Positions 466 to 4,052 of a stretch of DNA of 5,375 nt are shown here, piece after piece (within the stretch, counting starts at the first letter, position 1; the number at the start of each line of letters is the position of its first letter). Below the pieces are notes generated by a model that saw only the letters and a list, made by a program, of their open reading frames with translations, was not told the origin of the DNA and did not search any database. This DNA is from an uncultured Propionibacteriaceae bacterium (GTDB lineage Bacteria > Actinomycetota > Actinomycetes > Propionibacteriales > Propionibacteriaceae): the NCBI GenBank assembly GCA_937859105.1, contig CALMAD010000073.1, positions 1 through 5,375 on the forward strand, given 5' to 3'. Both the position numbers and the translations under genes were made by a program.

Positions 466-507
466 ATGCAGATTCGGGGTTGGTGGCGCCGTCCAGGCGG
501 CTGCTGA
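466..507 (+). CDS. trpS leader peptide (MQIRGWWRRPGGC) with tandem Trp codons
   Basis: A complete 13-codon frame runs from ATG to TGA. Two adjacent Trp codons (TGG TGG, 481-486) are residues 6 and 7. Trp is rare in proteins, so two in 13 residues directly upstream of a tryptophanyl-tRNA synthetase is a strong sign of a leader peptide whose translation senses Trp-tRNA charging. The Trp codons end one base before the first RNA segment of the attenuator (488-493), and the stop codon lies just after the second (495-501), which is the geometry ribosome-mediated attenuation needs. The peptide itself probably has no other function. Its start appears nearly leaderless. Confidence 0.8.
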   Translation: MQIRGWWRRPGGC

Positions 508-552
508 CCCTTCCTACCCATCGCACGGCCGTCTCGTAGGCGGCCGTTTCGT
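481..552 (+). promoter_or_regulatory. Tryptophan-responsive transcription attenuator controlling trpS
   Basis: Four segments form alternative hairpins. Segment 1 is GCCGTC (488-493), segment 2 AGGCGGC (495-501), segment 3 GCCGTCT (528-534) and segment 4 AGGCGGC (538-544). Pairing 1:2 gives a pause hairpin (488-492 with 497-501). Pairing 2:3 extends to 9 bp (495-503 with 526-534, two G-U pairs) and is the antiterminator. Pairing 3:4 is the 10-bp terminator (525-534 with 538-547). Because 1 repeats 3 and 2 repeats 4, the structures exclude one another. A ribosome stalled at the Trp codons would cover segment 1, let 2:3 form and allow read-through. A ribosome reaching the TGA at 505-507 would cover segment 2 and let the terminator form. 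This mechanism is known for trp operons and for an auxiliary Streptomyces TrpRS gene. The assignment here rests on hand pairing. Confidence 0.8.
525..550 (+). terminator. Attenuator terminator hairpin upstream of trpS
   Basis: ACGGCCGTCT (525-534) pairs with AGGCGGCCGT (538-547) over 10 bp, including one T-G wobble, closed by a CGT triloop and followed by TTTC. The U-run is only three bases, common in high-GC actinobacteria. It lies between the leader peptide and trpS. Confidence 0.75.
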
Positions 553-2358: not shown

Positions 2359-2961
2359 TTAGACGTTCCCCTTCTCCGCGCCGATCGTCGTGTCGGGCCC
2401 GTGGCCGGTGTGGACGACCGTGTCGTCGGGCAGGGCGAAGAGCCGCTCCCTGATCGAGGCGACGATGACGTCGTGGCTGCTGAAGCTGCGTCCGGTGGCG
2501 CCGGGACCGCCCTCGAACAGCGTGTCGCCCGTGAACACGGCCCCCAGGTCGGGCGCGACCAGACACACCGAGCCGGGGCTGTGGCCGGGCGTGTGCAGCA
2601 CGGTCAGCGTCGTGCCGCCCACCTCGAACGTCTGGCCGTCCGCGAGGGGACCGTCGGGGTCGGCGTCGTGCGTGAGCCGCCAGACCGGCAGGTCGTCGGG
2701 ATGGAGGAGCACCGGCGCGTCCACCCGCCGGCCCAGCTCGGGCGCGTACCTCACGTGGTCGTCGTGCCCGTGGGTGCAGAGCACCGCGAGGACGCGGCGT
2801 CCGCCGACGGCGCCCAGAATCGCGTCGACGTCGTGCGGGGCGTCGACGACGTAGCAGGCGTCGTCGTCGCCGATCACCCAGACGTTGTTGTCGACGTCGA
2901 ACGTCTCCCCGTCGAGGCTGAACGTGCCCGACGTGACGGCGTGGTCGACGCGGGCGTTCAC
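2359..2961 (-). CDS. Metallo-beta-lactamase-fold hydrolase, partner of mycothiol-dependent formaldehyde dehydrogenase
   Basis: The protein has 200 residues, a typical size for a glyoxalase II-like MBL-fold hydrolase. The metal-binding set is complete: H-x-H-x-D-H at 64-69 (in THGHDDH), His127 (TPGHSPGS), Asp146 (FTGDTLF) and His187 near the C-terminus (HTGHGPDT). There is no signal peptide, so it is cytosolic. The GTG start (2961-2959) overlaps the dehydrogenase stop as GTGA, and GGGGAGGAG ends 2 nt before it, so the two are translationally coupled. Homologues of this gene lie next to the mycothiol dehydrogenase in mycobacteria. The likely substrate is an S-acyl-mycothiol thioester such as S-formylmycothiol made by the upstream enzyme, by analogy with formylglutathione hydrolase or glyoxalase II. 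That substrate is inferred from context. The fold and operon are firm; the reaction is not. Confidence 0.9.
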
Positions 2962-4052
2962 GACTCCTCCCCGAACACCACGACCGACCGCAGCACCTCG
3001 CCGCGGCCCATCTTCGCGAAGGCGTCCTCGATGTCACCGGGGCCGATCTCCTCGGTGACGAAGGCGTCCAGCGGCAGCCGGCCCTGCAGGTACAGGTCGA
3101 TCAGCATCGGGAAATCCCTGGTCGGCAGGCAGTCGCCGTACCAGGAGGACTTGAGCGAGCCACCGTGGCTGAACACGTCCAGCAGCGGCAGCTCGAGGGT
3201 CATCTCGGGCGTGGGGACGCCCACGAGCACGACCCGGCCCGCCAGATCGCGGGCGTAGAACGCCTGCTTGTAGGTCTCGGGGCGGCCCACCGCGTCGATC
3301 ACGACGTCGGCGCCGAAGCCGTCCGTGAGCGACTTGACCGCCTCCACAGCGTCCTGCACCCGGCTGTCGACCGTGTGCGTCGCGCCCAGCTCGGACGCCC
3401 ACGCGAGCTTGCGCTCGTCGACGTCGACCGCGACGATCGTCGTCGCGCCCGCCAGCCGCGCGCCCGCGATGGCGGCCGCGCCCACCCCGCCGCAGCCGAT
3501 GACCGCGACGGACTCGCCGCGCTGGATCGCGGCGGTGTTGAGCGCGGCGCCGAGCCCGGCCATCACGCCGCAGCCGAGGAGCCCGGCGACGGCCGGGCGG
3601 GCGTCCGGATTCACCGGCGTGCACTGCCCGGCGGCCACCAGCGTCAGCTCCTGGAACGCGCCGATGCCGAGCGCGGGGGAGAGCTCCGTGCCGTCGACCA
3701 GGGTCATGCGCTGGGTCGCGTTGTGCGTGGCGAAGCAGTACCAGGGCTCGCCGCGGCGGCAGGCCCGGCACTCGCCGCAGACGGCGCGCCAGTTCAGAAC
3801 GACGTAGTCGCCGGGCGAAACCTCCGTGACGCCCTGGCCGACGGACTCCACGACGCCCGCCGCCTCGTGGCCGAGCAGGTACGGGTAGTCGTCGCCGATG
3901 CCGCCCTCGCGGTAGTGGAAGTCTGTGTGGCAGACCCCGCACGCCTGCACGCGCACGAGCGCCTCACCCGGGCCCGGATCGGGCACGTTGACGGTCACGA
4001 CCTCCACGGGCGCGCCCTGGGCGCGCGCGATCACTCCTTGGACCTGATGCAT
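2958..4052 (-). CDS. mscR: S-(hydroxymethyl)mycothiol dehydrogenase (mycothiol-dependent formaldehyde dehydrogenase / nitrosomycothiol reductase)
   Basis: This zinc-dependent medium-chain dehydrogenase of 364 residues oxidises the formaldehyde-mycothiol adduct with NAD; the family also reduces S-nitrosomycothiol. Visible features are the catalytic-zinc ligands Cys41 (CGVCHTD), His62 (GHEAAG) with Glu63, and Cys161 (GCGVMAGLG); structural-zinc cysteines 92, 95, 98 and 106 (CGECRAC then EPWYC); the Rossmann motif GCGGVG at 186-191; and Asp210 ending the second strand, which favours NAD over NADP. Stretches such as [38 protein letters not shown] and SSWYGDCLP are typical of this subfamily, including mycobacterial AdhE2/MscR. 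The start is ATG 4052-4050, preceded by AGGA 8 nt upstream. A frame opening at 4151 would add 33 Pro/Arg-rich residues covering the promoter and is rejected. The next gene overlaps by 4 nt. The pair forms a cytosolic formaldehyde and nitrosative-stress detoxification operon. Confidence 0.95.

Follow-up and report, generated by a model that had tools for sequence, protein, structure and literature searches.

The window, i.e. the whole stretch of 5375 nt analysed here, contains on its + strand the trpS gene (587-1735), which encodes a tryptophan--tRNA ligase of 382 aa (TIGR00233, 224.2 bits for a cut-off of 176.75). It is the sole trpS match in the source genome, which is 73.85% complete and falls in the same genus group as G124. 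The sequence GGAG (579-582) is the likely Shine-Dalgarno sequence of trpS. Further upstream on the same strand lies a short ORF of 13 codons (466-507, MQIRGWWRRPGGC), with an ATG at 466-468, a TGA stop at 505-507 and the tandem tryptophan codons TGG TGG at 481-486. The second of these codons is retained in the genus members L082 and L085, which have a single Trp codon. A short ORF with tandem codons of the relevant amino acid is thus placed 5' of a gene for that amino acid. A -10-like box, TAGGGT (454-459), sits 6 nt (GGGGCC) before the leader AUG. Because of this position, transcription is predicted to start at or beside the AUG and to give a leaderless leader mRNA. The complete element, from the -10 box to the U-tract, measures 96 bases (454-549). 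The first-pass annotation had placed the leader ORF, its Trp and stop codons and two exact repeats, GCCGTC (488-493 and 528-533) and AGGCGGC (495-501 and 538-544), and all of these coordinates were correct.

Three competing helices were predicted between four segments of the + strand. The default 1:2 hairpin (476-511, arms 476-490/496-511, -23.1 kcal/mol) takes in both Trp codons and extends beyond the leader stop codon. Segment 2 (495-503) is the 5' arm of the antiterminator and pairs with 526-534 in a helix of 9 bp including two G.U pairs (-12.0 kcal/mol). Segment 3 (525-534) provides both the antiterminator 3' arm (526-534) and the terminator 5' arm (525-534). The latter pairs with segment 4 (538-547) around a 3-nt loop (535-537), forming a strong terminator hairpin of 10 bp (525-547, -16.7 kcal/mol). 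The tail of this hairpin is short, being merely UUU (547-549, of which 547 also closes the hairpin) and then CGUAUGUCCG, reading CGUAUG in RNA letters. Folding therefore reproduced the 10-bp terminator and the 9-bp antiterminator that had been proposed earlier. The pause hairpin proposed between segments 1 and 2 stood insofar as a 1:2 hairpin is predicted; the 6-mers first taken as its arms were too small and cannot pair fully, because just 2 nt are left between them as a loop. Region 508-556 folded better than 200/200 dinucleotide shuffles (z -3.51). Region 495-552 alone folded no better than shuffles (z -0.55), with the terminator and not the antiterminator as its equilibrium structure. The support for competition between the 1:2, 2:3 and 3:4 helices thus consists of predicted folds and of the covariation described below, found in 3:4 and in one pair of 2:3.

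Stepwise folding was then used with the 5' part of the RNA masked according to usual ribosome footprint values. Without a ribosome, 476-490 paired with 496-511 and the terminator 525-547 formed. When the RNA was masked to 493 or 496 (ribosome on the first or second Trp codon), the 2:3 helix formed as soon as base 534 had emerged (-13.2 or -9.4 kcal/mol) and lasted until 542. When it was masked to 517 (ribosome at the stop codon), only the terminator was obtained. At full-length equilibrium the terminator won in all ribosome states. The mutually exclusive switch expected from masked folding was thus recovered during stepwise folding, with 2:3 in the stalled state and 3:4 at the stop, and was lost at full-length equilibrium. 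Since the terminator (-16.7 kcal/mol) beats the antiterminator (-12.0 kcal/mol) at equilibrium, antitermination must be co-transcriptional, i.e. depend on kinetic trapping.

On sequence grounds, region 454-549 is very probably a ribosome-mediated transcription attenuator that would admit polymerase to trpS when charged tRNA-Trp is scarce. Transcription would start at the leader AUG and a ribosome would initiate on the leaderless end. With ample Trp-tRNA, the ribosome would reach the stop codon (505-507) and cover segment 2, and the 3:4 hairpin would terminate transcription. In the absence of a ribosome, 1:2 would pair, and 3:4 would again cause termination. With scarce Trp-tRNA, the stalled ribosome would hold a Trp codon in its A site and cover segment 1 to about 493-496. 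Segment 2 would then be left free for segment 3 before segment 4 emerges. The leader and the competing predicted hairpins therefore suggest that trpS is likely turned up when tryptophan is short. This supports the original reading of an attenuator with a WW leader 5' of trpS, to which the larger 1:2 hairpin, the predicted leaderless start and the shortness of the U-tract are added here.

Regions upstream of trpS were collected from 80 named loci (the best 80 of 541 relatives), 30 family-search loci including the window's own and 60 selected further family regions. They collapsed to 165 distinct regions. A WW leader was defined as an ORF of at most 32 codons containing WW and located within 300 nt of trpS. 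Such ORFs were found in 36/165 regions, compared with a mean of 1.7 and a maximum of 4 in dinucleotide shuffles (30 rounds), so that the conservation of the leader peptide looked for in orthologues was found. An in-frame start codon (ATG, GTG or TTG) lay 6-7 nt past a TANNNT box in 36/36 WW regions and in none of the shuffles. No other tandem codon exceeded 3/165 at that box spacing, and the reverse strands of the 165 regions contained five WW ORFs, none with a box. Removal of same-organism duplicates (L005, L100, L102, L105, L106, L121 and L139, equivalent to L093, L003, L007, L004, L011, L032 and L019, respectively) reduced the 36 WW regions to 29. A curated set of 34 leaders was made from these 29 and five single-W leaders picked by eye. 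Four further single-W candidates (L016, L030, L163 and L165) were excluded on visual inspection before the 34 were counted; of these, L030 may be a true member. In L059 (Cutibacterium sp.) and its relative L168, a leader was present and no convincing hairpin with a U-tract was found. The U-tract was short and imperfect in many relatives and reached UUUU or more in several, e.g. L110, L019, L203 and L210.

The other 129/165 regions had no WW leader within 300 nt of trpS. In the congeners L087 and L092, a -10-like box lies about 40 bases before the trpS ATG with no leader in between. The terminator 5' arm is gone in both and an apparent terminator 3' arm is retained in L087. These two loci are likely natural losses of the attenuator, which fits an add-on switch placed between promoter and gene. 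The apparent losses and the 129 regions without a WW leader indicate that the attenuator is dispensable for trpS.

The distance between the control codons and the antiterminator was analysed by seeking the best helix with the terminator 5' arm over the entire stretch that separates the last Trp codon from the terminator. The terminator hairpin was set by hand for L084, L025 and L168. The antiterminator started 8-11 nt past the last Trp codon in 31/34 curated leaders, compared with 8.9% in shuffles, and the helix was individually significant (p <=0.05) in 23/34. For the window, no more than 1 in 201 letter shuffles of the stretch matched the helix energy (p 0.005), and segment 2 follows the last Trp codon at a gap of 8 nt (counted to A495) or 9 nt (counted to G496). 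A ribosome whose A site holds the last Trp codon reaches approximately 8-11 nt downstream. The codons of the window are placed such that a stalled ribosome would mask segment 1 and free segment 2. In a second set of 34 leaders found with the covariance model R1 (see below), the spacing was 8-11 nt in 33/34; the miss, L222, was a locus where the hairpin had been wrongly detected. This count is weaker evidence, because the spacing is part of R1 and favoured by it, and because many of the leaders are closely related. Pooling both sets gave 64/68 leaders with 8-11 nt, the second set having been chosen with R1. No TANNNT box was present 5-8 nt upstream of an in-frame start in 7/34 model-found leaders (L197, L208, L216, L217, L223, L226 and L227), so the leaderless layout is not general. 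The leader stop codon lay 6 to 27 nt past the last Trp codon. Compared with most other genus members, the window and its nearest relative L082 have a gap to segment 2 that is one base shorter, and their stop is shifted from before segment 2 to after it. In either position, segment 2 would be covered by a ribosome that has reached the stop.

A MAFFT alignment of 32/34 leaders (A1, without L168 and L170) was discarded: its arms were misaligned and RNAalifold gave no structure. The model-guided alignment A6 was used instead. From 76 input loci, 74 matches passed the threshold of E <= 0.0025, which excluded four weak opposite-strand matches (E 0.003-0.006); none was obtained for L059 and L168. The input left aside seven further loci close to ones already in it (L207, L211, L212, L215, L221, L224 and L242), as well as L227 and any locus fetched twice. 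In the 74 leaders, 97.2% of the terminator cells were paired and both-side changes occurred in 6/10 pairs, including each of the four outermost. Terminator covariation was reached by 0/500 shuffles on any measure and was above all slid controls, a score that is favoured by the fitting of A6 to the terminator helix. The antiterminator, which is outside the R1 structure, paired in 95.3% of cells. Its pair 111:171 was A-U in 34 leaders, G-C in 34, G-U in three (including the window) and broken in three. Double-change cells numbered 35, compared with 10.6 in shuffles (0/500 as high); two of the five antiterminator measures, double-change pairs (2; 74/500) and further pair types (7; 139/500), were within the shuffles. 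The compensatory changes in orthologues that the first-pass annotation asked for as a check were therefore present in both the terminator and this antiterminator pair. For the outer stem of the 1:2 hairpin (5' part of the leader with the linker), the core hairpin was hand-set for L083 and L085 and a corrected one was used for L222. Combined p-values were 0.002 and 5e-11 for the two sets, and p was 0.17 for the window alone, so that the outer stem is supported for the sets and not for the window by itself. Because the rows are related to each other, the p-values given here overstate independence.

R1 was built from 19 relatives, with the window and L082 excluded. It matched the window with 63.8 bits (E 1.4e-14), and the trpS leader element was its only match in the window's own genome. 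R1 also matches the - strand at 525-547 (11.4 bits, E 0.021), because the terminator is nearly palindromic. Among 13 genomes of the genus, three (G128, G132 and G133) gave no match. In 391 sampled genomes of the order, strict filters left 63 matches in 61 genomes, and 59 of the matches precede trpS, trpD or trpB (57) or a PF04392 transporter gene (2). Twenty-six of the 63 lie directly 5' of trpS (25 by coordinates and L184 by family scan), and six more loci correspond to trpS (3), trpD (2) and trpB (1). The 27 other full or near-full matches precede trpS (12), trpD (13) or a PF04392 substrate-binding protein gene (2), and four partial, terminator-side matches had no trpS, trpD or trpB downstream by BLAST. 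At L227, the BLAST match was partial, yet a full trpS gene is present. At the class level, 394 genomes gave 21 matches, of which 17 were new. Sixteen of these (without G511) were examined: 12 precede trpS, one trpD and three anthranilate-synthase-like genes, whose scores were under the equivalog cut-offs. In the genus member G134 (L184:452-1613, - strand), a leader of the same kind, MHERLRWWRP, precedes a trpS with 35% identity to that of the window, as if the gene had been replaced and the switch retained.

Leaders with the same WW layout and long U-tracts, MHTTRTWWPA (L203:51-162, +) and MQNMYSWWLA (L210:1201-1310, -), were observed before genes for PF04392 substrate-binding proteins. PF04392 is the family that includes the TrpX-type tryptophan transporters. 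By their sequence, these WW leaders suggest tryptophan-controlled uptake.

These data bear on the reading in which the WW ORF is a chance product of GC-rich DNA, next to an ordinary terminator hairpin that serves some unrelated function. GC hairpins and short ORFs are common in such genomes and the WW ORF is missing from most of the trpS upstream regions. Against this, 36 WW ORFs with the -10 spacing were seen vs 0 in 30 rounds of 165 shuffled regions; R1, which was never shown the window, gave a single match in the whole genome; and the linkage to Trp genes spans genera and families. Chance is therefore extremely improbable.

Another reading accepts that the leader is translated and the hairpins form, and places control in Rho/NusG release after a pause, in mRNA stability or in access to the trpS start. 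The short imperfect U-tract in the window and many relatives is in its favour, as is the S. lividans trpS leader, for which two hairpins and no uridine-enriched sequence are described in the cited part of PMC8079986. A partly conserved GYRTGYYYG-like stretch after the terminator hairpin also fits this reading, as does one fold in which a small hairpin of 4 bp covers the trpS Shine-Dalgarno sequence. On the other side, the terminator hairpin has very high stability, both-side changes occur in each of its four outermost pairs, several relatives (e.g. L110, L019, L203 and L210) have UUUU or longer, and no tie was found between the Trp codons and the trpS Shine-Dalgarno sequence. We regard this alternative as unlikely, and favour transcription attenuation at the 3:4 hairpin.

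In alignment A6, the GYRTGYYYG-like stretch that comes after the UUU (548-559 in the window, GTATGTCCG) recurs across genera and genes. It may mark a release or pause site, or something else. An exact CATG after the hairpin occurs in 17/34 first-set leaders and is absent from the window.

Control of trpS by a tRNA-sensing T-box or another riboswitch was also considered. A T-box is longer than this leader region. An Rfam search of the window up to E 1 returned no attenuator, T-box or riboswitch; its sole match was mir-598 (2803-2871), far under the gathering score. Such control is conceivable in that T-boxes are predicted for ileS in some Actinobacteria and Firmicutes aminoacyl-tRNA synthetase genes are mostly T-box controlled, according to the cited part of PMC1262725; for this window it is a most improbable explanation. 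The chance, T-box and pure-terminator readings were set aside.

The attenuator proposed here resembles that of the E. coli trp operon, which has segments 1-4, tandem Trp codons and a 1:2 hairpin containing these codons. The E. coli leader is led by a Shine-Dalgarno sequence and is longer, whereas the switch of the window takes 96 bases. Leaderless cysteine-rich uORFs of mycobacteria were reportedly described by Canestrari in 2020. As far as the cited part of PMC4633059 goes, cysteine-rich uORFs of mycobacteria are proposed to attenuate. They share with the window a leaderless (predicted in the window) short ORF with control codons, and differ from it by cysteine in place of tryptophan and by other downstream genes. 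For C. diphtheriae, the cited part of PMC5784534 reports an ilvB leader that is leaderless.

The closest published system is in Streptomyces, where attenuation of trpS was already said to be known, and this holds in the cited parts of PMC1262725 and PMC8079986. The S. lividans trpS leader (trpL2, MMTRTCTQLWRAA) is reported as leaderless from RNA-seq (PMC8079986, in the part cited). Its gene, its short Trp leader and the hairpins between leader and trpS are as in the window, where the leaderless start is predicted. The published peptide contains a single Trp, and according to that part of the article a uridine-enriched sequence is lacking; the window, by contrast, carries WW and a hairpin with a UUU tail, and its stop codon follows segment 2. 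R1 finds, in a genome of the same class, a trpS leader (L234) whose peptide, MTTRTCTQLWWPA, differs from the published trpL2 peptide at 3/13 residues. Since R1 finds both L234 and the window, their sequences make it very likely that the published S. lividans leader and the window belong to one family. Seliverstov et al. predicted a trpS2 attenuator in Streptomyces avermitilis and trp operon attenuators in Corynebacterium and Streptomyces (PMC1262725). In its cited part, the classical leader/antiterminator/terminator architecture in Actinobacteria, with GGCC in the arms, is like that of the window. Propionibacterium acnes was included there, a trpS attenuator was named in Streptomyces only, and that part describes no leaderless start or fixed codon spacing. 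No trpS attenuator in Propionibacteriaceae was found in the literature searched, most subscription journals being outside its scope.

The class is known; what is new is the window instance, the breadth of the family and the near-constant spacing. Leaderless Trp attenuation of trpS is thereby extended from Streptomyces to Propionibacteriaceae and neighbours. More broadly, a leaderless ribosome-ruler attenuator family probably runs the Trp regulon of Actinomycetes, acting on trpS, trpD, trpB, anthranilate-synthase-like genes and a PF04392 Trp-type transporter gene. In this family, transcription would start on the leader start codon and the antiterminator would begin one ribosome footprint (about 10 nt) past the last Trp codon, while sequence, stop position and trpS lineage vary. 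R1 provides a covariance model that finds the element without knowledge of the gene, and the near-constant distance between codon and antiterminator offers a natural ruler for the ribosome footprint. The compact 96-base element would be a handy test bed for transcription-translation coupling in Actinobacteria.

Other features were noted in the window. On the - strand, an open frame at 3-254 has a signal-peptide-like start (LKKHTKTLATLAAVTVLTLTSAGPAWA), and ATG, GTG and TTG are absent between its upstream stop and the signal sequence. A 126-aa ORF on the + strand (1911-2291) has a membrane-protein-like sequence and no NCBIfam match. On the - strand, a gene for an MBL-fold hydrolase adjoins one for S-(hydroxymethyl)mycothiol dehydrogenase (TIGR03451) at 2362-4052, and these genes are likely a formaldehyde-detoxification pair.
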